This document shows positions 53,574-63,111 of a DNA stretch of 64,000 bases, piece by piece; the stretch's first letter is position 1; every line of letters starts with the position of its first letter. A program made the position numbers and the translations under genes. The DNA is from Clostridia bacterium (GTDB lineage Bacteria > Bacillota > Clostridia > Oscillospirales > Acutalibacteraceae), in contig JAFTWW010000002.1 of assembly GCA_017465085.1 (NCBI GenBank), positions 19,064-83,063 on the forward strand, written 5' to 3'. The notes under the pieces are model-generated. The model was not told the origin of the DNA. It worked only from the letters and a program-made list of their open reading frames with translations, and ran no database searches.

Positions 53574-54257
53574 TTATGAATTCGATACTGTTTTTCTGTT
53601 CTTCCAATAGCTTTTTCCAAAGGCAATGTATTCTGCCAATAAACACACGGGGATCGCTGCAAAAATATCCACGACCGAATGTTGTTTTACAAAAGCGACC
53701 GATATACATACCAAAAGGCAGAAAATAACTATCAGCACCTTGCACCATTTTGACGCGGACCTTTCTTTAAGCCAGGTTGAGGCAATGCCGATAGAGTATG
53801 CCACGTGCAAGGAAGGACAAACATTCGTGCTTGTGTCGAAGGAGTATAACAGTCCGACAATATCCGTAAAAATATTATCTCTCGCAAATTCGGCAGGTCT
53901 TAAATCCTGACGGTTGGGGAAGATGATATAAATCGCCATCGCAACAATCTGCGTAACGATAATAAACTTCATCATATTCTTAAAGTTGTCAGGGTTATAG
54001 AGAGCAAAATATATAAGCGACCCAACGATCAGCAGATACCAGCCCACATACGGTATCACGAAATATTCGCAAAAAGGAATGACATCATCAAGTGCGCAGT
54101 GAACGGAGTAACACTTTTCATACGGAATTGAATTTTCGGTCAGAAAATAAAGAGCAAAATAGCCGAGCCAGCCAAGCAAAAATTTCAGATGCTCAAATTG
54201 CGGCTCATTGATCTTTGAAAGCCGAAAGGTTCGGTAATCAACCACAGGTTTTCTCAT
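53574..54257 (-). CDS. PAP2-family membrane phosphatase
   Basis: 227 residues with about six helices. The phosphatase motifs are NRQDLRP (motif 1 variant), CPSLHVAYS (motif 2, catalytic His) and KQHSVVDIFAAIP (motif 3, His/Asp). It resembles the PAP2 branch that includes inositol phosphorylceramide synthase-like proteins. Probable substrates are phosphatidate or prenyl diphosphates. It overlaps the LPLAT gene by ATGA. Confidence 0.85.
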   Translation of the reverse strand: MRKPVVDYRTFRLSKINEPQFEHLKFLLGWLGYFALYFLTENSIPYEKCYSVHCALDDVIPFCEYFVIPYVGWYLLIVGSLIYFALYNPDNFKNMMKFIIVTQIVAMAIYIIFPNRQDLRPAEFARDNIFTDIVGLLYSFDTSTNVCPSLHVAYSIGIASTWLKERSASKWCKVLIVIFCLLVCISVAFVKQHSVVDIFAAIPVCLLAEYIAFGKSYWKNRKTVSNS

Positions 54258-55027
54258 TGCGGCACCTCTGTAATGTCCTTGTTTGTCAAATAGTTTTTCT
54301 TGGGAATATTTCTGTAAGGAATTACAATATGCTCCGGTAAATTGCGTGCAATTTCTGTGATTTCATCAGCCAGATACTGAGCGATCTTTGTTCTCTCATC
54401 AGCAATATCGTTCTGGCTGTTGAATTTTATCCCTTTTCCGATATACATTTTTTTGAGTTTCGGAGCTATATACATCGGTACAAAGGTAAGTTCTGTTCCG
54501 GTTTTTTTATAATACAATCTTGCCACATCAATGAAATTCTGCTGAAATTTATAGAGGATGTTATTGTACGTTTCATCCTTTTCGGGAAAAATAAGAAGGT
54601 TTTTTCCTTCCTTTAGCATAGCTACAGATTCACGAAAGGTAGATAATACTCTGTTATCACGGTAAACGGCAATCGTTCTCGCATTATTAAAAAGGCAAGA
54701 TGCCAAAGGGGCGATTATGTATGATAAAGCCTTGAAAAAGGGGTGCATCCACTTCGGTTTTTGAGACCAGAAATCCGTAAAAGCGTACTGCGGAACCTCT
54801 TTCATATTCATCATTTGTCCTGCACACCAAATGTAACAGTTATCGGGCATAAAAAGCTCACCGACAATGGGGCCGTTCATTTGCGTGTGATTTGCAACAA
54901 TGACCGCGTCCTTCTTCGGGAGGTTTTCAATGCCGACAACATCCGTTTTACCGTAAAACAGCCTAACAAGCCATCGCACTATCTTAAAAATACATTTTGA
55001 AAACCACGCTGTTTTTTTCTCTTTCAT
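54254..55027 (-). CDS. Lysophospholipid acyltransferase (PlsC-like) with altered HX4D motif
   Basis: 257 residues. AVIVANHTQMNGPIVGELF stands where PlsC has NHxxxxD, so the Asp is Gly. Motif III FPEKDETYNN is a variant of FPEGTRS. A basic amphipathic N-terminus fits a membrane-peripheral enzyme. The family acylates lysophosphatidic acid or related lipids. The missing Asp makes the activity uncertain: it may use another base or a different acceptor. Confidence 0.75.
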   Translation of the reverse strand: MKEKKTAWFSKCIFKIVRWLVRLFYGKTDVVGIENLPKKDAVIVANHTQMNGPIVGELFMPDNCYIWCAGQMMNMKEVPQYAFTDFWSQKPKWMHPFFKALSYIIAPLASCLFNNARTIAVYRDNRVLSTFRESVAMLKEGKNLLIFPEKDETYNNILYKFQQNFIDVARLYYKKTGTELTFVPMYIAPKLKKMYIGKGIKFNSQNDIADERTKIAQYLADEITEIARNLPEHIVIPYRNIPKKNYLTNKDITEVPQ

Positions 55028-55057
55028 AAGACACCCACTATTGCTATATTCTTTAAG

Positions 55058-56029
55058 TTAATTGTTTTTAGTCCAGAAATCCATCACCGCATCCTCATAA
55101 CCGTTTTTATCGACAATATAACTCATACCGTGCTCGGCACCAGGCACAACGAACAAACGCTTTTCGGATACGCAGGCTTTATAGTTTTCATAGGTCATTT
55201 CAATGGGCACGAAGTTATCATCTGTGCCGTGAATGAATAATACGGGGATTTTGCAATTTGAAAGAGCTTCAACCGTAGAGTACGAATCGGAAGGCGCCTG
55301 AATTCGCTTTTCACAAATATCCCTTGCGGCACGGCTATATAAGCCAAACGGCAGCTTGAAATTATTTTCAACCACGTGCTTCCAAATGGCGTGCGGAGAG
55401 GTAAAGGCGCAATCGGCAACGATTCCTTTCACATTTTCGGGCAGTTCAAAGCCTGACGTCATAAGAATAGTAGTAGCACCCATCGACACACCGCCGAGGT
55501 AAATCGGCAGTTTTGCTTCGGTACGCTCGTTTACCCAATTGATCCAATCAAGGCAATCGTACCGTTCCAACAGTCCGAAGCCCATATATTCACCGCCACT
55601 ATTGCCCTGACCGCGCTGCTCAGCAAACAAAACAGCACAGTCATTATCAAACCAGAACGGCGCAATGGCACCAAAATCCTGCGACCAGGTCGAACGCCAG
55701 CCATGCATAGCAATAATGATTCTCTTTGCATTTTCGGGCCAAAACCAATGACCGACTAACAAAGTTCCATCCTGCGCGGCAATTTCCACCTTCTTATGCT
55801 CGGTATCTTCCAGCACCTTGGCAGCATCCATAATAGCTGCAACCGTTTCTGATAAGTCCCTCGAGGACATCAGCTTTTCCTTATCCTTGGCTGCACTTTT
55901 TGGACCTTCTCGATCAAGAGCAAGTTTCATCAAGTACTTAGTTGTGTAGTGGTGAGCGATTCCGACTGCAGCTATACCGGCTACAGCAATACCGGAACCT
56001 ATCAACATATTTCGCGTGCTTTTTTTCAT
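55058..56029 (-). CDS. Membrane-anchored alpha/beta hydrolase
   Basis: 323 residues. One N-terminal helix (about 9-27) is followed by an alpha/beta-hydrolase domain: AMHGWRSTWSQDFG, EQRGQGNSGG, GGVSMGATTIL with nucleophile Ser, HGTDDNFVP with the Asp and GAEHGMSY with the His. Similar to YqkD/Bem46-type hydrolases facing the outside. A lipid or ester substrate is plausible given the operon. Confidence 0.83.
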   Translation of the reverse strand: MKKSTRNMLIGSGIAVAGIAAVGIAHHYTTKYLMKLALDREGPKSAAKDKEKLMSSRDLSETVAAIMDAAKVLEDTEHKKVEIAAQDGTLLVGHWFWPENAKRIIIAMHGWRSTWSQDFGAIAPFWFDNDCAVLFAEQRGQGNSGGEYMGFGLLERYDCLDWINWVNERTEAKLPIYLGGVSMGATTILMTSGFELPENVKGIVADCAFTSPHAIWKHVVENNFKLPFGLYSRAARDICEKRIQAPSDSYSTVEALSNCKIPVLFIHGTDDNFVPIEMTYENYKACVSEKRLFVVPGAEHGMSYIVDKNGYEDAVMDFWTKNN

Positions 56030-56088
56030 ATAATCATAAACCTTTCCTTACTAATATTAAGCGCTTGCCATGCTGTGACCGCAAAAGC

Positions 56089-56967
56089 TTAGCTCGGTTT
56101 TACATTTTCCGTAATCGGTGAACGTGCTGTGTATGAGGTGACACCTAAAATCATCTCGCCGTCAATGTGAAGCGATGTCGGGCGATCATACTCGACCTTA
56201 ATTTCATGACCAGTCAATATTTCCACCATTTTTGTGTGCTTAATATGCTTTCCCTTGAAAATGGAAGGAAATACGCACAAAGTTTTCAATTTGCCCGAGC
56301 TGTGCAACACCATAACCGAAAGCGTTTTTTCTTTGCTTTTTCTGTCCTGGTTTGGTGTGGGCATCATTCCGCCGCCGTAGAATCTGCCGTTCATTGTCGG
56401 TGCCAGCCATACCTTTTCATATGTATAGGTCTTTCCGTCCACCGTCACCTTGGCATTGGTCGGCTTATAGTGAAACAGTAAACCTTTTATGGCAATAGAA
56501 ATATAATTGGCTCTCTTGTTGCGATTGCTCTTAAACTTGTCTCTCGCTTTGTAGCAGTAGCTGTCGAAACCGTAACCGACGCCATTGATAAAGCGATATT
56601 TTTTACCGTTAATAACAATGCTCGGAAGATTTTTAAGATAATCTGTTATGGGGAATGGATTGCATTCCTTTGAATACCCGAGATCGTGTGCAAAGTCATT
56701 GTCGGTTCCATTTGGGAAATACAGAACCTCATTGTCAAAATCAATGCCATCTGTGGCATTGGCAAAGCGATTTAATGTACCGTTACCACCCGCAAGTATG
56801 ATAAAATCTTTTTCTTCCAGCCCCGAAAGAAATACTCTGTAATTTTTGATATTAAGAACATCAATAAACTTGAGTTCCTCATCTATGACCACCTCAAGAA
56901 GTTTGACATCTTCAACATCATTTTTTGTGCCTGCCTTTGAGTTATAAAGGACATATCCGATACTCAT
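56089..56967 (-). CDS. Diacylglycerol/lipid kinase family protein
   Basis: 292 residues of the DAGK catalytic family. YNSKAGT, LAGGNGTLNRFAN (ATP-binding GGDGT variant with Asn), FPNGTDNDFAHDLG and LHIDGEMI are the family signatures. It phosphorylates diacylglycerol or a similar lipid to feed phosphatidate back into phospholipid synthesis. It follows the phosphatidyltransferase gene by 23 bp. Confidence 0.85.
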   Translation of the reverse strand: MSIGYVLYNSKAGTKNDVEDVKLLEVVIDEELKFIDVLNIKNYRVFLSGLEEKDFIILAGGNGTLNRFANATDGIDFDNEVLYFPNGTDNDFAHDLGYSKECNPFPITDYLKNLPSIVINGKKYRFINGVGYGFDSYCYKARDKFKSNRNKRANYISIAIKGLLFHYKPTNAKVTVDGKTYTYEKVWLAPTMNGRFYGGGMMPTPNQDRKSKEKTLSVMVLHSSGKLKTLCVFPSIFKGKHIKHTKMVEILTGHEIKVEYDRPTSLHIDGEMILGVTSYTARSPITENVKPS

Positions 56968-56990
56968 TTTTTCCTCCCCGAGCAGTACGC

Positions 56991-57563
56991 TTATTTTTCA
57001 AAACTACCCTTCTTTATAGCTTTAATGTTCTGAACCGAATACATAATAAAAGACATTAGCATAATGCCAATACACGTGCCTACCAAAATCAGCGATATCG
57101 TGTGGGGAATGTTATACCAAATCAGATGAATGGCCATCATCGCATATAGGGAAACCGTTGTCAGTTTTCCGTGCCACACTGCACCCTTGACTGTGCTTGT
57201 TCTCTTAATGGAGATGAGGGCGGTAATTCCCGTACATACCTCTTTTACCACAAGAAGAACAAGAGGTATCGCCATATAAGGAAAACGGGATACAAGGCAA
57301 AACAACATCGCCATCTGTGTCAGCTTATCGGCAATCGGATCAAACGCCTTCCCGAAATTGCTTATCATATTGAATTTTCGTGCAATAATACCGTCAACAA
57401 TATCCGTAATGCCGGATAAAGTCAGAATCAGCAGCGTCCAGAGATAATCCTGTTTTTCGATATACAGCCAAATAATAACCGGGATCAGACACAGTCTGAA
57501 AAAAGAGAGGATATTCGGTATAGTCAATATTTTATTTTGATATTTTTCGGCGACGTCGTTCAC
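56991..57563 (-). CDS. pgsA: CDP-alcohol phosphatidyltransferase (PgsA-like)
   Basis: 190 residues with five or six helices. The CDP-alcohol signature runs DIVDGIIARKFNMISNFGKA and continues FDPIADK with both Asp pairs intact. It would make phosphatidylglycerol-phosphate from CDP-diacylglycerol and glycerol-3-phosphate, though other alcohols cannot be excluded. It is the first gene of the eight-gene lipid operon, just behind the triple-repeat promoter. Confidence 0.85.
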   Translation of the reverse strand: MNDVAEKYQNKILTIPNILSFFRLCLIPVIIWLYIEKQDYLWTLLILTLSGITDIVDGIIARKFNMISNFGKAFDPIADKLTQMAMLFCLVSRFPYMAIPLVLLVVKEVCTGITALISIKRTSTVKGAVWHGKLTTVSLYAMMAIHLIWYNIPHTISLILVGTCIGIMLMSFIMYSVQNIKAIKKGSFEK

Positions 57564-57600
57564 TGTAAATCAACCCCTATTTTCCGTATTGTACTCACAA

Positions 57601-57644
57601 AGTATATAAAACAAGTTGCAACTCAAGTTCAACCCAACATCAAC
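57601..57644 (-). promoter_or_regulatory. Triple 11-bp repeat promoter of the lipid operon
   Basis: On the minus strand GTTGATGTTGG, GTTGAACTTGA and GTTGCAACTTG follow each other without gap, then TTTTATATACT with a TATACT -10 box. There is no good -35, so the promoter likely needs an activator of the OmpR/PhoB type. Confidence 0.75.
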
Positions 57645-57652
57645 ATTTGTTG

Positions 57653-57696
57653 AAAAAAGAGGTATTGGTGTTACACAGAACCAATACCTCTTTTAT
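57653..57696. terminator. Terminator of the second two-component operon
   Basis: AAAGAGGTATTGGT and ACCAATACCTCTTT pair around a 10-nt loop with A- and T-rich flanks, just beyond the kinase stop. Confidence 0.85.
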
Positions 57697-57705
57697 AAGA
57701 ACTAT

Positions 57706-58764
57706 TTACTTGTTTGAGTGAAGCGTTACAGTAAATCTACAGCCGCCACCCATTATATTTTCTGCAAAAACATCTCCGTCTGCCATCGTTAAAATCCGTT
57801 TTACCAAAGCCAAACCAAGTCCGTTTCCTTCCTGCTTGTGAGAGCTGTCTTCTTGATAGAATTTATCAAAAAGGTGTTTCTGTGCCTCAGCAGAAAGCCC
57901 CGGACCCCTATCGTCAACAACAAAGAAAATATTGCCTTCCTTTTTGTAGAGCCGAATTTTTATGATTTCGCCCTGCGGACTAAACTTTACGGCGTTTCCA
58001 ATGATGTTGGTCCACACATGGTACATCATTTGCTCGTTTCCGTAATACTCAAGGTCTTCCATATCAACATCAAAGTCAATATCCTTCGGTGCCCAGGCTG
58101 ATTCCAATGCAAGAAAAGCCTCACGGATCTGCTCATCAAGTCCATACCACTCCTTATGTGTCTGAATGGATTGGTTTTCAATTTTGGAAAGAAGCAGTAT
58201 GTTACTGACAAGGGTAGAAAGCCGCTTGGTGTTAAAAAGGATTTTCTCTACATATTCTTGCTGATCGGTGTCAAGATTATCGCCGCCCTGCAAAAGCGTG
58301 GAATATCCCTCTATAGCGTTAATCGGTGTCTTAAACTCGTGAGAAACGTTGGAAACAAAATCGGTCTGCAAAATTTCTGTAGAGCCAAGCTCCTGTGTCA
58401 TCATATTAAAGCCGGCAAATACTTCCTGTATTTCACTTGACGAAGATTTTGTTTCTAACCGCGTATCAAACTTGCCATCCGCAACCTTTTGCATTCCGAT
58501 TCGAAGTTCTTTTATCGGGTCAAAAAACATTTTAGATAAAAAGTATGTCGATATAACTGCAATGACAAGACTAAAAAGATTTAACTGTATCAAAAGCGGT
58601 ATGCTCGTGATGGGCGGGAGCAATAACTCAAGGAGTTTGGAGATACCAAAGGAAATTAGAGTACTAAAAAGAACCACAACACCGACAAGCGCAGTCAGTC
58701 GAGTTCTTAAACTGAACTTTGTTTCTTGTTTTCGTATTTCTTCAAACGTTTCTCTTGCTTTCAT
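57706..58764 (-). CDS. Sensor histidine kinase
   Basis: 352 residues. Two membrane helices (about 24-44 and 56-78) are separated by only about 12 residues, so it has almost no external sensor and probably reads the membrane itself, like intramembrane-sensing kinases of Firmicutes (inference). HAMP, HisKA with His142 (VSNVSHEFKTPINAI) and a HATPase (GNGLGLALVKRI) follow. It overlaps the regulator gene by ATGA. Confidence 0.92.
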   Translation of the reverse strand: MKARETFEEIRKQETKFSLRTRLTALVGVVVLFSTLISFGISKLLELLLPPITSIPLLIQLNLFSLVIAVISTYFLSKMFFDPIKELRIGMQKVADGKFDTRLETKSSSSEIQEVFAGFNMMTQELGSTEILQTDFVSNVSHEFKTPINAIEGYSTLLQGGDNLDTDQQEYVEKILFNTKRLSTLVSNILLLSKIENQSIQTHKEWYGLDEQIREAFLALESAWAPKDIDFDVDMEDLEYYGNEQMMYHVWTNIIGNAVKFSPQGEIIKIRLYKKEGNIFFVVDDRGPGLSAEAQKHLFDKFYQEDSSHKQEGNGLGLALVKRILTMADGDVFAENIMGGGCRFTVTLHSNK

Positions 58765-59432
58765 ACCTTGACCACCTTATATCCGACACCGCGCATCGTG
58801 ACAATCTTAAAGTCAGCGTTTTCTTTAAATTTGTCTCTAAGTCTGCCGATATGAACATCAACGGTATGGGTGTCGCTTTCGGAATCATAGCCCCACACAT
58901 CATCCATCAGTTGCTGACGGGTGAAGATGCGCCCCGGGTAAGATGCCATTTTATAAAGCAGCATGAACTCTTTCTGCGGAAGAATCATAACGCCCTTCTC
59001 CGAAGTGACAGTGAAGGTATCACATTCAAGCACCGTATTTCCAATAGTCTGCTTGCGCTCACTGATCATTTGTGCACGGCGAAGGAGCGCCTGCACACGC
59101 AGCACCATTTCATTGACATTGATCGGTTTTATCATATAGTCATCGGCGCCGGACAAAATTCCGAGCCGCATATCGTCAAAAGCATCCTTGGCAGTGATCA
59201 TCAGCACGGGTGTATTATTTCCGGCGTCCCTGAGCATACGGACAAGCTCATAACCGTCCATTACCGGCATCATAATATCGGTAATGATAAGGTCATAATA
59301 GTCCCCATCCATAGCATCCAGCGCCTCTTGGCCATTGGCAACTTCTTTTACGTTATATCCGTTCTTGATGAGCACATGAGCGAACAATCGCCTCAGCTCA
59401 CGGTCATCTTCTGCAATTAAAATCTTAAGCAT
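58761..59432 (-). CDS. OmpR/PhoB-family response regulator
   Basis: 223 residues. Receiver domain with Asp52 in LIITDIMMPVMDG and Lys in DYMIKPI, then a winged-helix domain (PQKEFMLLYKMASYPGRIF, VDVHIGRLRDKFKE). Such regulators bind tandem 11-bp repeats, which is what lies upstream of pgsA, the DUF1295 gene and mntP. It is cotranscribed with a small HTH gene and the kinase. Confidence 0.93.
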   Translation of the reverse strand: MLKILIAEDDRELRRLFAHVLIKNGYNVKEVANGQEALDAMDGDYYDLIITDIMMPVMDGYELVRMLRDAGNNTPVLMITAKDAFDDMRLGILSGADDYMIKPINVNEMVLRVQALLRRAQMISERKQTIGNTVLECDTFTVTSEKGVMILPQKEFMLLYKMASYPGRIFTRQQLMDDVWGYDSESDTHTVDVHIGRLRDKFKENADFKIVTMRGVGYKVVKV

Positions 59433-59434
59433 AA

Positions 59435-59629
59435 CTATTTACCCTCCGGTTTGTTTTCAGTTTCGCTTTTTCTTCTTAGATCACACGGCCGCTTAGCATC
59501 CTTGGGTATCATCCACGAACGTCCGAAACGCTGCACGTTCGGTATTCTGTTTTCAACGCAGAACTTTTGTACCCACCGTTCGGAAACACCCCAAAGCTCG
59601 GCCACCTCTTTTACTGAAATATAGTCCAT
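59435..59629 (-). CDS. Excisionase/MerR-like small HTH protein
   Basis: 64 residues. SVKEVAELWGVSERWVQKFC is a winged HTH of the excisionase/MerR type, then FGRSWMIPKDAKRP, which is typical of the DNA-binding-domain-only group. No effector domain. It lies 2 bp before the regulator gene; an inverted repeat CCGAATA/TATTCGG (59639-59669) spans its promoter -10 and ribosome site, so it may regulate itself (inference). Confidence 0.8.
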   Translation of the reverse strand: MDYISVKEVAELWGVSERWVQKFCVENRIPNVQRFGRSWMIPKDAKRPCDLRRKSETENKPEGK

Positions 59630-59658
59630 TGCTTCCCTCCGAATATATTATCACTTAT

Positions 59659-59687
59659 ATTGTATTCGGATAAACGAACACTGTCAA
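59659..59687 (-). promoter_or_regulatory. Promoter of the HTH-regulator-kinase operon with inverted repeat
   Basis: On the minus strand TTGACA-17-TACAAT; the -35 overlaps the stop of the preceding gene. CCGAATA at 59639-59645 and TATTCGG at 59663-59669 flank the transcription start. Confidence 0.7.
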
Positions 59688-61270
59688 GGCCATTTTTGTG
59701 AACTCTGCAGTATCTTTTCTTTCTTCTTGGCATACCATCGGTAGATCAATCCTCCGAGGATTGCCAGTACGATCGTTGCCGCAAAGATCAAGGCAGATGT
59801 CAGGTACTGCCGTTCTGCCAGTGCAGAGCCGCAAAGGGTTGATGAAAGCACAGACGGCATTCTGGCAATAAAGGTGATGACCATAAACGGAACGAATTTT
59901 ACAGGCAGCAAGCCCACGAAATAGGTAAAGCCATCTTTCGGTGAACCGGGAATCAGGTAAAGGAAGAACAACAGTGCATAGATCTTATCACTGCTTTGGA
60001 ACAGCTTTATGGACTTCATATTCTTGGTCGGCAGGAAAAGCTCGATAATTTTTTGTCCGAACTTCTTAGTTAAGGCAAAGATAATGACTGTTCCGATCAT
60101 ATTGCCGATCACACAATAAAGCATTCCGGGCACAACACCCCAGGCATAACCCGACCCAATCTCAAGTGGCTCGGCAGGGATAAATTTCACTACTGTTTGT
60201 GCCGCTCGTATCAGAATAAAGATAATTTCATCAAAGACACCAAACTTGTTCAGCCATTCACGGAAAACTGTCGGGTCCGAAACGATCTTTACAAGCTCTT
60301 TGCCGAAGAACATATAGGAAAAGATGCAGACAAGAATAAACACCAAACCGCCGAGCAGGACTATTGCTTGCTGTTTGGTGGGATGGGTTATACGGTAGAA
60401 AGATTTTATGTGTTTTTTCAAGACGCCTGATGGAGCATTTCCCAATTCTTTAATCTCCGGATAAAAGCAGTTCAGTACACCTTTGTATCCGTCGTTCCAG
60501 GGCTTATACTTGCCGTTATAGTGAACGATAGCCGTTTCACGCGCCACTGCATCCAAATCATATTGCTTACGCTTGCTAAAGTATTTGAAAGTCTTCTCGT
60601 CGAGATTATAAACACGCTCGTCAATAAATATCGTCTTTTCTCCGAACAGAATATTTGCCATATCCTGATCGCCGAGAAGGAGTCGCTGAGCGTTTGCCTC
60701 CAGACATTCAAGCACATACTCCAACGTAAAATCTCTGCGAATGGCAGATAAATTCATCAGCATAATGCCGGAGTTGAAATATCGTTCCTGCCCTTTGCAG
60801 CTAAGCCTTGCCTTATTGAAGGCGTTGCCGAAACCGTGCATATGACCAGCGGCCGCAAGATAGGAATCACCCAATTCCATATTGTAAAGAGACAGTATCG
60901 ATTTTCGGATGTAAATATCCGGGTCGAGATACAGACACCGTTCTACACTCTCAGGAAGATATCGGAACGCCAAAAGGCGATAAAAGGATTCTTCAGGCAG
61001 CCGTTCCAGTACGGGAGTATTACTGAAATATCTGTCGGTTATTTTGATATTATGTATTTGAATTTCGGCACCTTCGACCGCGTGCTCAAGACACTGAAAA
61101 TCCTCCGCTGTTAAGACTGAATGAGCCACAAAGACATCCGTTTTGATGCCCTTATGTGTTTCGGCATAAGAGCCGAGCATCGTCGCTAATGGAAAAAGGT
61201 AGTTGCGGTCAATTGTTACCAGTAAATTGATTGGTTCGTTATAAATGGCGTGATGTTCCGTATGTTTCAC
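59684..61270 (-). CDS. Fusion of GT8 glycosyltransferase and VTT/TVP38-type membrane protein
   Basis: 528 residues. Residues about 1-270 are a GT8 domain: NLLVTIDRNYLFPLATML, DxD in CLYLDPDIYI, FNSGIMLMNL, GDQDMAN and VHYNGKYKPW. A helix near 303-325 leads to a VTT (DedA/TVP38/TMEM64) domain at about 345-515 with FIPAEPLEIGSGYAWG and YLIPGSPKDG. The first half transfers a sugar from a nucleotide donor; VTT proteins are linked to lipid scrambling. The product may make and flip a glycolipid (inference). It is second in the operon with the DUF1295 gene. Confidence 0.85.
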   Translation of the reverse strand: MKHTEHHAIYNEPINLLVTIDRNYLFPLATMLGSYAETHKGIKTDVFVAHSVLTAEDFQCLEHAVEGAEIQIHNIKITDRYFSNTPVLERLPEESFYRLLAFRYLPESVERCLYLDPDIYIRKSILSLYNMELGDSYLAAAGHMHGFGNAFNKARLSCKGQERYFNSGIMLMNLSAIRRDFTLEYVLECLEANAQRLLLGDQDMANILFGEKTIFIDERVYNLDEKTFKYFSKRKQYDLDAVARETAIVHYNGKYKPWNDGYKGVLNCFYPEIKELGNAPSGVLKKHIKSFYRITHPTKQQAIVLLGGLVFILVCIFSYMFFGKELVKIVSDPTVFREWLNKFGVFDEIIFILIRAAQTVVKFIPAEPLEIGSGYAWGVVPGMLYCVIGNMIGTVIIFALTKKFGQKIIELFLPTKNMKSIKLFQSSDKIYALLFFLYLIPGSPKDGFTYFVGLLPVKFVPFMVITFIARMPSVLSSTLCGSALAERQYLTSALIFAATIVLAILGGLIYRWYAKKKEKILQSSQKWP

Positions 61271-61333
61271 CTCCCGAAAATATGATAGAGGAATACACCT
61301 TACCCCAAAGGCGTAGCTTACAAAAAGAAATCG

Positions 61334-62191
61334 TTACTTCTTAATCGGCAGTAGCATTCGTGTTTGCTTTTTATATTCATCAAAGCCCTGTCGCCGGGAC
61401 ATCCGATTATCCGCCATCGGTATGCTTACAAAAAGGAAAAGCAAGGTGTTGGCTGCTGCACCAACACAGAGATACCACGCTTCAGGGAACGCTGAAATAA
61501 CTGAAAGTGCCACACCCCACCACATCAGGATTTCTCCAAGATAGTTTGGGTGACGAGAATATTTCCAAAGGCCGCTGCGGATGAAACCTCCCGTCTTTTG
61601 CTTACGGAACCGTTGCATCTGCAGATCGGATACACCTTGCAGTATAGTTGCGCCGATAGACAAGCAGAAGAAAACAATACTTCCCACACGCAGTTCAGCA
61701 CTGTAAAGCATAGCGTAAACGGCAGGAAGCACACATCCATACACGATAAGTGTCGGCACAAGATGGATCCCAAGAAAATTTATAATCGGATAAAATACTC
61801 CTGTCTTTTCTTTGAGCATTGTGTAACGCCAATCCTGATGTTTAAGACCGTGAAATGTGTAGGCCCAATTTGCAGTTAAACGGACACCCCAAAAGCAAAC
61901 CGCAATAAGCAAGAGCAAACGAAACGGTGTCAGTTCGGCATTTAAAGCAAAGGCAATCAGAATTACAATCGGCTGAACGCTCCAGTACGGATCATAAACC
62001 GAGGCATTTCCAAAAATCAAACTAAAGATAAATGTGACAACAGTTGCCACAATATCTGCAATCAGCAAATTGAGCCACCAATCATAGGGCAGTGATTTAT
62101 AAACGACAATTCCTGTTAAAGCGGCAAGTATGTAAACTACTGTTATTACAACAAAGCTCAGTGTGCGGTTATCCTTCATTTTCTCAAACAT
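61334..62191 (-). CDS. DUF1295 / steroid 5-alpha-reductase-like membrane enzyme
   Basis: 285 residues, about seven helices. GLWKYSRHPNYLGEILMWWG is the NADPH- and substrate-site motif shared by DUF1295, steroid 5-alpha-reductases and isoprenylcysteine methyltransferases. In bacteria the substrate is unknown but is probably a membrane lipid. AAGGAG precedes ATG 62191. The promoter carries the same triple 11-bp repeat as pgsA. Confidence 0.85.
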   Translation of the reverse strand: MFEKMKDNRTLSFVVITVVYILAALTGIVVYKSLPYDWWLNLLIADIVATVVTFIFSLIFGNASVYDPYWSVQPIVILIAFALNAELTPFRLLLLIAVCFWGVRLTANWAYTFHGLKHQDWRYTMLKEKTGVFYPIINFLGIHLVPTLIVYGCVLPAVYAMLYSAELRVGSIVFFCLSIGATILQGVSDLQMQRFRKQKTGGFIRSGLWKYSRHPNYLGEILMWWGVALSVISAFPEAWYLCVGAAANTLLFLFVSIPMADNRMSRRQGFDEYKKQTRMLLPIKK

Positions 62192-62233
62192 AATTTAGCT
62201 CCTTGCAGACATAATAAACCTATTGTATAAGAA

Positions 62234-62277
62234 AGTATAAAGGTTTTATTTCAATTCAACTTCAACCAAAGTTCAAC
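62234..62277 (-). promoter_or_regulatory. Triple 11-bp repeat promoter of the DUF1295/GT8-VTT operon
   Basis: On the minus strand GTTGAACTTTG, GTTGAAGTTGA, ATTGAAATAAA, then ACCTTTATACT with TATACT in the same position as at pgsA. Confidence 0.75.
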
Positions 62278-62281
62278 AATT

Positions 62282-62325
62282 GTTGAAGTTGAGTTTACTT
62301 TGGGTTGAATTTTGTCGAATATACT
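62282..62325 (+). promoter_or_regulatory. Triple 11-bp repeat promoter of mntP
   Basis: GTTGAAGTTGA, GTTTACTTTGG, GTTGAATTTTG, then TCGAATATACT with TATACT at 62320-62325. It is back-to-back with the DUF1295 promoter, only 4 bp between the two repeat sets. Confidence 0.75.
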
Positions 62326-62334
62326 ATTGTTTGT

Positions 62335-62455
62335 TGTGAGGGAGTAGCAAGCGCATCCTAAGTGTAACAAGTCAACATACTGGTTTCGACCTGGCTTGTT
62401 TTAATTTGCGAGACTCACGTAGAGCTTCTGTAAAGCTCTACGTGGAGTCATTATA
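62335..62455 (+). promoter_or_regulatory. yybP-ykoY manganese riboswitch
   Basis: GAGGGAGTAGC near 62338 and GCGAGACTC near 62408 are the two conserved loops of the Mn-sensing aptamer, and a long stem CACGTAGAGCTT/AAGCTCTACGTG closes the second arm. It lies directly before mntP, its usual target. Mn binding should permit expression of the efflux pump. Confidence 0.88.
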
Positions 62456-62466
62456 TCTTGTTTTTG

Positions 62467-62505
62467 ACACCGAGTATGGTTTTTACCTTGCTCGGTATTT
62501 TTATT
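62467..62505 (+). terminator. Riboswitch expression-platform terminator
   Basis: ACCGAG pairs with CTCGGT, with an inner GGT/ACC stem, and is followed by ATTTTTATTG, 20 bp before the mntP ribosome site. Confidence 0.65.
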
Positions 62506-62526
62506 GTCAAAACGGAGGAAACAAAA

Positions 62527-63111
62527 ATGAACTTAGGATTTGATTTCTTTTTCACAAGCATTATGCTCGGTGTGGGACTGGCTATGGATGCCTTTTCGGT
62601 ATCTCTCGCAAACGGTCTCAACGAACCGAAAATGAAGAAAAGAAAAATGTCGGGTGTTGCCGGCATATTTGCAGTCTTTCAGTTTGCAATGCCCATGATC
62701 GGTTGGATTTGCGTGTCCACCATTGCACAGTATTTCAAAGTATTTGAGAAATGCATCCCGTGGATCGCTCTTGGCTTGCTTGGATTCATCGGCGGTAAGA
62801 TGCTCTATGAGGGCATCAAAAACAAGGATTATGACAAGGACAAGCCCGCTATGGTTTTCAAAGATCTTTTGGTACAGGGAGTTGCTACATCTATTGATGC
62901 ACTGTCTGTCGGTTTTACCATTTCCGATTATGACTGGCTACACGCTTTGCTTTCCTGCCTGCTGATTGGTATCGTTACCTTCTTTATCTGTTATGCCGGA
63001 CTTGCCATCGGCAAAAAGGCAGGAACCAAGCTCGCAGGAAAATCCGGTATCCTCGGCGGCGCTATTTTAATATTTATTGGTCTTGAAATCTTTATTACAA
63101 GTTTGTTTTGA
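62527..63111 (+). CDS. mntP: Manganese efflux pump MntP
   Basis: 194 residues, six helices. GLAMDAFSVSLANGL and later ATSIDALSVGFTIS are the paired Asp-containing metal motifs of MntP. It exports excess Mn. ATG at 62527 follows ACGGAGGAAA; a frame that opens earlier runs through the terminator hairpin and is rejected. The Mn riboswitch upstream confirms the assignment. Confidence 0.95.
   Translation: MNLGFDFFFTSIMLGVGLAMDAFSVSLANGLNEPKMKKRKMSGVAGIFAVFQFAMPMIGWICVSTIAQYFKVFEKCIPWIALGLLGFIGGKMLYEGIKNKDYDKDKPAMVFKDLLVQGVATSIDALSVGFTISDYDWLHALLSCLLIGIVTFFICYAGLAIGKKAGTKLAGKSGILGGAILIFIGLEIFITSLF

Follow-up and report, generated by a model that had tools for sequence, protein, structure and literature searches.

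PhoB recognises the Pho box, in which two CTGTCAT-type repeats of 11 bp replace the −35 element at a fixed distance from the −10 element in front of phosphate genes. This report concerns a promoter pattern of 11-bp repeats in a 64,000-nucleotide stretch of DNA from a Clostridia bacterium of the family Acutalibacteraceae (contig JAFTWW010000002.1, positions 19,064 to 83,063, forward strand; hereafter the window), which also encodes a histidine kinase and a response regulator of OmpR/PhoB type. Statements on published systems refer to passages of the papers cited. ArcA of E. coli, a member of this family, binds arrays of two to five direct repeats placed 11 bp centre to centre, and its three-repeat sites have been footprinted (PMC3798270). 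PhoP of M. tuberculosis binds tandem, head-to-tail sites with an 11-bp period (7-bp motif and 4-bp spacer), including tandem trimers and tetramers (PMC4832192). All known sites of the family are called direct repeats in the latter paper, and direct or inverted repeats are allowed in a later one (PMC12548384). RR_1586 reads a direct repeat (PMC6222199), and CmrR of C. difficile reads the inverted repeat ACAAT-N8-ATTGT, the direct repeat that was tested being judged not to be the site (PMC12548384). The two-component systems HexRK and YrkPQ each govern a small regulon for lipid or membrane biogenesis (PMC10128005), and the LiaFSR-SapRS-BsrRS systems of enterococci are lipid-directed (PMC13123819). 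The sites in the window are predicted, from sequence comparison, to be operators of the encoded two-component system, which would activate sigma-A promoters without a −35 element in front of glycerophospholipid genes; the probability of this reading is estimated to be roughly 0.8. The pattern thus marks a putative, conserved membrane-lipid control circuit; as a prediction, this regulon is well supported, and its operator is unusual. The observation from which a first-pass annotation of the window started is real, its reading is largely right, and the finding is stronger than was first stated.

The pattern GTTGA-N6-GTTGA-N6-GTTGA-N11-TATACT is matched in the window at 57601-57644 (−), 62234-62277 (−) and 62282-62325 (+), with one mismatch each. 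The mismatched boxes are GTTGC at site 1, ATTGA at site 2 and GTTTA at site 3. With up to three mismatches allowed, these three matches stand against none in 100 dinucleotide shuffles of the window. This result bears out the first-pass annotation, according to which three contiguous 11-mers and a TATACT box are arranged in identical register upstream of pgsA, the DUF1295 gene and mntP. Its statement that these promoters have no good −35 element also holds, inasmuch as none of the promoters listed by a sigma-70-type scan of 57500-62600 overlaps one of these sites. The unit it described is correct in its three 11-mers and −10 box, but incomplete, because an inverted half, TCAAC, was overlooked; each of the three sites has it upstream of the first repeat, at a distance of exactly 4 bp. 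Sites 2 and 3 stand back to back and have the palindrome TCAACAATTGTTGA in common. When the whole genome of this bacterium (1.66 Mb in 52 contigs, a draft assembly) is searched, a fourth site without mismatch is found on a different contig (C52:92481-92533, −), where it precedes a gene for a HAD hydrolase. A shorter pattern gives matches in this genome at zero or one mismatch and the next ones only at three, and because of this jump the regulon seems, in the draft assembly, to consist of four promoters. Thus, the three targets proposed originally do carry sites, but the HAD hydrolase gene was missing from the list. The fourth site can also be read in the divergent direction, with two mismatches and no gene behind it (L009, 8510-8569, +); this reading is perhaps merely the reverse of the array of the HAD hydrolase gene.

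The full unit across relatives is TCAAC-N4-GTTGA-N6-GTTGA-N6-GTTGA-N11-TATAAT, and its half-sites read roughly GTTGANNTTNA. In 88 sources (1.33 Mb, consisting of 80 loci found through the regulator, the window and seven stretches found through the motif, two of which overlap), the pattern with 11-bp spacing gives 103 matches at up to four mismatches, overlapping readings counted. The patterns with 10-bp and 12-bp spacing and the reversed pattern, which give six, three and four matches, respectively, are rejected. A later set comprises 86 stretches (1.25 Mb, including the window and the genome to which it belongs); it holds 102 sites, 101 of them distinct, at up to three mismatches, as compared with none for the reversed pattern. 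The −10 box, which is absent from the search pattern, appears at one offset. When no more than two mismatches are allowed, 81 distinct sites are left; column 48 is T in 77 of them, column 49 is A in 79 and column 53 is T in 78, and TATAAT with at least five of its six letters occurs 56 times at the fixed offset and at most seven times at any other. The last repeat begins 16 bp upstream of the −10 box. The search of related genomes for the triple motif with fixed −10 spacing, which the first-pass annotation had suggested as a check, has thereby been made, and the sites and their fixed geometry are established. GTTGA resembles part of a −35 element and the DNA is AT-rich, so that a chance alignment, a dispersed repeat or a promoter of a special sigma factor might give such a pattern. 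This explanation is contradicted by the shuffled and reversed controls, by the variable bases between the boxes, by the TATAAT-like −10 box and by the lack of any repeat 17 bp from it, and is given almost no weight. The GTTGA repeat is likewise rejected as a −35 element, because TTGA is located 9 or 20 bp from the −10 box and not 17 bp.

The inverted half was examined blind, at 86 distinct sites picked by the three repeats and TANNNT alone. TCAAC is exact at position −9 in 71 of these sites and retains at least four of its five letters in 82, whereas only 13 have an exact copy of a second inverted half at −20. The 67 stretches that were chosen by the regulator only give similar results, with TCAAC exact at 50 of 62 sites, at least four letters retained at 58 and the second inverted half at 10. 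The recurrence of TCAAC in sites picked without it, together with the rarity of the second half, indicates that the unit consists of one reversed and three forward boxes. It might be argued that the inverted half has no role of its own and is a mere by-product of divergent promoters, because sites 2 and 3 share one palindrome and divergent pairs are found in several relatives. However, the same counts argue that this is not so, and single sites such as that of pgsA keep TCAAC. The by-product explanation is therefore regarded as unlikely.

The distance of the last repeat from the −10 box is about that of PhoB. The unit resembles ArcA sites in that three direct repeats are arrayed every 11 bp, but differs from them in sequence, in the nearly constant unit and −10 distance, where repeat number and spacing vary for ArcA, and in its fixed inverted half-site, which is not described for ArcA in the passages concerned (PMC3798270). 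It shares the 11-bp head-to-tail period with PhoP of M. tuberculosis, whose sites, however, are direct repeats with a different motif and a different regulon (PMC4832192). Like CmrR, the regulator is a clostridial protein of the OmpR family with an inverted element in its putative site, but the CmrR sequence is different, and the direct repeat tested for CmrR was judged not to be the site (PMC12548384). The unit bears on the question of which repeats this family may read, because a conserved back-to-back half-site is combined with three direct repeats. HexRK controls the hexSDF glycolipid genes, and is likened to the new system by description only; neither the word motif nor the word consensus occurs in PMC10128005. 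The new unit or regulon is not described in passages of the papers cited so far or of PMC10858260 and PMC10601699, and among the matches listed for the open-licence literature none describes the motif or the regulon. The sensor-regulator pair of these gut Clostridia is apparently unstudied.

The gene at 58761-59432 encodes a receiver domain (PF00072, 98.5 bits) and a Trans_reg_C winged helix (PF00486, 81 bits), which agrees with its earlier assignment to the OmpR/PhoB type. The solved proteins nearest to it in sequence are MtrA, RegX3, DrrD (which we take to be the structure labelled 'response regulator D'), PrrA and PhoP. Identification of this regulator as PhoB is rejected, because its score for NCBIfam TIGR02154 is 165.6 bits against a cut-off of 296.2. 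No phosphate-uptake gene is found among the genes assigned to 94 of the 101 sites, one of which is of an unknown family, the other seven sites having no assigned gene. The regulator, which belongs to the OmpR/PhoB family by its domains and is not PhoB by the NCBIfam cut-off, is predicted to work like PhoB and ArcA.

In a sample of 394 genomes of the order, the own genome included, the motif is present at up to three mismatches in all 21 genomes whose regulator has 73% identity or more, in 10 of 23 where it is 56-64% identical and in 31 of the remaining 350 (p=1.9e-20); 25 of these 31 match at exactly three mismatches. At up to two mismatches, these numbers are 16 of 21, 7 of 23 and 6 of 350. 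The refuting outcome named in the first-pass annotation, absence of the motif before orthologous genes in relatives that keep the regulator, is not observed: the motif is present in these first 21 genomes, the own one among them, and in the fetched stretches it precedes the regulator gene 19 times, pgsA 13 times and mntP homologues 3 times. In a closer set of 60 genomes, again including the own genome (G000), a regulator with at least 76% identity is found in G000, G033, G019, G004 and G042, the next best being 59% identical. The pattern with its −10 box is found in G000, G033, G019 and G042, and two sites are found in G004 by the pattern that includes the inverted half. Single matches with three mismatches in G009, G020 and G024 are taken as chance, because no regulator exceeds 43% identity there. 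Named genomes were scanned with the regulator protein, and the best 80 of 586 confirmed loci were used. A site is present in the stretch for 18 of 21 loci at 73% identity or more, 6 of 11 at 64.5-73%, none of 3 at 55-64.5% and none of 24 below 55%. The tree built from 94 regulators places every one of the 55 rows with the motif in one clade of 68 rows, and none of the 26 rows outside has it; a row counts as having the motif if its fetched stretch, which is short in some cases, holds a site with at most three mismatches no more than 12 kb away. The branch support is 92/64 for this clade and 99/90 for the 69-row fork just below it. Because most of L206-L215 were chosen for holding the motif, these association tests rest on the other samples, namely the genome sets and the loci found through the regulator. 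Co-inheritance of motif and regulator is established by these samples.

Some loci without a full site retain part of one. Inspection by eye of 13 regulator loci of this kind shows that five (L035, L046, L051, L119 and L217) keep two repeats and a −10 box in the same register in front of the regulator gene. A weight-matrix scan of 39 motif-less regulator loci gives degenerate sites at five (L195, L043, L202, L056 and L119) and nothing above a score of 9 at 34; the best score for reversed sequence is 12.2, and the sites used to build the matrix score no lower than 18.7, with 49 as their median. The genome of L036, which is out of the sample, has no full site at the regulator and a divergent site between genes for a CDP-alcohol phosphatidyltransferase and a patatin. 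Among residues of the DNA-binding domain of the regulator, only positions 136 and 189 passed the filter for marking motif loci, and neither is clean.

Association is not binding, and at most loci the regulator is present by construction, because they were found through it. A different DNA-binding protein that travels with the operon might therefore read the sites, for which the small helix-turn-helix gene in front of the regulator gene in the window and the G126 genome, which has sites without a regulator, could be cited. However, motif and regulator go together also in the whole-genome samples, where the loci were not chosen, the small gene is not found at that place in G033, G019 or L025, and OmpR/PhoB regulators use just such a head-to-tail spacing of 11 bp (PMC3798270, PMC4832192). 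We regard a different reader as very improbable, and the two-component regulator as the probable ligand of the sites.

Several observations weigh against this assignment to the regulator or against the regulon predicted from it. The motif is missing, even at three mismatches, from 13 of the 23 genomes with a 56-64% identical regulator, and three of 14 whole genomes scanned, those of L035 (regulator 77% identical), L054 and L055, have no site at up to two mismatches. On the tree, the motif label changes nine times, at least seven of these changes being forced by well-supported branches. G126, which is 97% complete, has two sites, before pgsA and FtsH, and no regulator at E 1e-40. One match with two mismatches is found in each of G281, G306, G357 and G405, where no regulator exceeds 54% identity. 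Some of the putative targets are not lipid genes (tRNA IPP transferase, beta-CASP, radical SAM, MatE and GNAT proteins). No site directly precedes the regulator gene of the window. The kinase seems to have no outside sensor domain, as judged from its hydropathy plot only, which is a further weak point. Apart from these points, it was seen that both sites of G126 are on a 3.6-kb contig (L207; G126:C39:1-3566), and that L054 (Coprococcus comes) and L055 (Ruminococcus bromii), which belong to two different families and are both motif-less, have nearly identical regulators and nearly identical DNA behind the kinase gene. This near-identity suggests a recent transfer or a mixed record.

The first genes behind the 101 distinct sites encode the regulator (19), PgsA (13), acyltransferases (9), DegV (7), PlsY (5), CmpB-type ABC proteins (5), diacylglycerol kinase (4), FtsH (4), MntP (3), a Ca-type P-ATPase (3), radical SAM proteins (3), CrtO (3), HAD (2), CdsA (2) and VTT (2). 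GT8-VTT, DUF1295, patatin, beta-CASP, ABC ATPase, GNAT, MatE, IPP transferase, DUF2238 and one protein of an unknown family follow a single site each. The first filter for open reading frames left 12 of the 101 sites without a gene, and a wider one leaves seven, four of which have no open reading frame and three have one unlike the references. Lipid genes (PgsA, acyltransferases, DegV, PlsY, diacylglycerol kinase, CrtO, CdsA and one patatin) follow 44 of 101 sites, or 33 of 81 at up to two mismatches, as counted by the Pfam names of the reference families; the assignment is partly circular, because these families were drawn from genes behind sites. PgsA homologues stand directly behind a site in 13 of 22 cases, as compared with approximately 6% of other mechanical open reading frames of at least 150 amino acids, overlaps included (p=6e-11, a rough value). 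Where the stretch lacks the regulator, a lipid gene likewise follows seven of 14 sites, indicating that the link to lipids is not merely one of neighbourhood. The gene classes behind the sites are established. The DegV proteins, which are presumably fatty-acid-binding and FakB-like, cover together with PlsY, PlsC-type enzymes, CdsA, PgsA and diacylglycerol kinase the route to phosphatidylglycerol. The suggestion of the first-pass annotation that the lipid operon, the GT8-VTT operon and manganese efflux form one regulon gains from the sites before pgsA, mntP and regulator genes in relatives. It gains less for the remaining genes, because the only DUF1295 homologue in the stretches is that of the window and GT8-VTT has a site in one relative (L026).

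To our knowledge, the control of phospholipid synthesis in gut Clostridia is little known, and targets have been assigned to few of their two-component systems, as is stated for C. difficile in the abstract of PMC10601699. At the present locus, a signal read from sequence gives the regulator, the putative operator, the putative target genes and the promoter geometry together. It does so for numerous uncultured genomes and also for isolates with a name, Blautia schinkii (L032) and Lachnoclostridium sp. An76 (L053) being examples. We infer that the regulator binds the sites and activates from them, that the inverted half-site has a role, and that a signal reaches the kinase, as follows. The partner kinase would report a membrane condition and phosphorylate the regulator. 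Regulator protomers would then seat on the polar array, one back-to-back pair on TCAAC-N4-GTTGA and further protomers head to tail on the two other 11-bp repeats, so that the last protomer would be placed just upstream of the sigma-A −10 box and substitute for the missing −35 element. A small regulon, with approximately one to five good sites per genome, would be switched on for glycerophospholipid supply and envelope upkeep; in the genome of the window, it would consist of the pgsA-diacylglycerol kinase-acyltransferase row, DUF1295-GT8/VTT, mntP and the HAD hydrolase gene. Alternatively, the regulator may bind the sites and mainly repress, or act with both signs, by covering the −35 region, because the array occupies the position where a −35 element would lie and the related ArcA is said to act mainly by repression (PMC3798270). 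However, no −35 element is seen at the three window sites, so that the promoters should need help, and the single fixed −10 offset is as expected for contact with RNA polymerase. Repression is thus rather improbable, and activation by the regulator is preferred. A wider reading, which is tentative and to which we give slightly less than even odds, is that the circuit is a pathway-wide phosphatidylglycerol switch, in which one regulator uses a polar four-box operator of two geometries, a nucleating symmetric pair and a promoter-pointing chain. One cassette would be placed in front of different steps of the route in different species (fatty-acid binding by DegV, PlsY, PlsC-type acyltransferases, CdsA and PgsA, together with recycling by diacylglycerol kinase), and selection would keep control of the flux rather than of any one gene.

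The kinase has two hydrophobic segments, a very short loop between them and a HAMP domain, and its signal is therefore probably sensed in or at the membrane. BceS-type kinases are not known to have a HAMP domain. The kinase resembles that of BceRS in having, by hydropathy, no extracytoplasmic sensor domain, but differs from it in the presence of HAMP, and no BceAB-type ABC transporter is found among the Pfam-scanned neighbours in 53574-63111. The coordinates of the features are summarised in Table 1.

Table 1. Sites, genes and other features of the window around the regulator gene
Feature	Position	Strand	Remarks
Site 1, pgsA promoter	57601..57653	−	TCAAC-N4-GTTGA-N6-GTTGA-N6-GTTGC; −10 TATACT at 57601-57606
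Site 2, DUF1295 promoter	62234..62286	−	TCAAC-N4-GTTGA-N6-GTTGA-N6-ATTGA; −10 TATACT at 62234-62239
Site 3, mntP promoter	62273..62325	+	TCAAC-N4-GTTGA-N6-GTTTA-N6-GTTGA; −10 TATACT at 62320-62325
Response regulator, OmpR/PhoB type (receiver and winged helix), proposed ligand of the sites	58761..59432	−	PF00072, PF00486
Histidine kinase	57706..58764	−	Two hydrophobic segments and, between these, a very short loop (hydropathy), followed by HAMP, HisKA, HATPase
Excisionase-like helix-turn-helix protein, 64 amino acids, directly before the regulator gene	59435..59629	−	Named by eye from the translation
Sigma-A-like promoter of the helix-turn-helix-regulator-kinase row, TTGACA-N17-TACAAT	59659..59687	−	Promoter scan
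pgsA-like CDP-alcohol phosphatidyltransferase, first gene behind site 1	56991..57563	−	Family search
YegS/BmrU-type lipid (diacylglycerol) kinase, behind pgsA in the same direction	56089..56967	−	Pfam search
Alpha/beta hydrolase, co-directional lipid gene row	55058-56029	−	Row spans 53574..56029
PlsC-type acyltransferase, co-directional lipid gene row	54254-55027	−	Pfam search
PAP2, co-directional lipid gene row	53574-54257	−	Below the Pfam cut-off
DUF1295 membrane protein, first gene behind site 2	61334..62191	−	Pfam search
Glycosyltransferase family 8 (GT8) fused to a VTT (DedA-like) membrane domain	59684..61270	−	Pfam search
mntP-like manganese efflux pump, behind site 3	62527..63111	+	Family search
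mntP leader	62337..62526	+	Core 62366-62400 resembles a Mn2+ riboswitch (yybP-ykoY); strong hairpins downstream

The regulator gene stands directly behind a site in 19 of the 55 loci that carry the motif. In the window, it has a sigma-A-like promoter of its own, so that autoregulation would occur there only by read-through from the DUF1295 site. The order of the window is mntP, sites, DUF1295, GT8-VTT, small helix-turn-helix gene, regulator, kinase, site and pgsA row, and that of G033 is mntP, sites, regulator, kinase, site and pgsA. The simplest reading of this difference is that DUF1295, GT8-VTT and the helix-turn-helix gene were inserted between the regulator and its old promoter, the regulator being now under the sigma-A-like one. 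An inverted repeat, CCGAATA...TATTCGG, accompanies the helix-turn-helix gene and this promoter (59435-59687). A relative of the GT8-VTT fusion, 58% identical and with its own site, is found directly before the regulator gene in L026.

The leader of mntP gives no Rfam match at the gathering cut-off. Its match to yybP-ykoY scores 17.2 bits (cut-off 45; E 0.0087) and covers only model positions 47-85 of 177, so that a full manganese riboswitch is rejected and only a resemblance is retained. A sub-threshold match to yybP-ykoY is also found in the mntP leaders of G033/L115, and the leader of the window folds strongly (z −4.7). The mntP gene may be under control of both the regulator and manganese.

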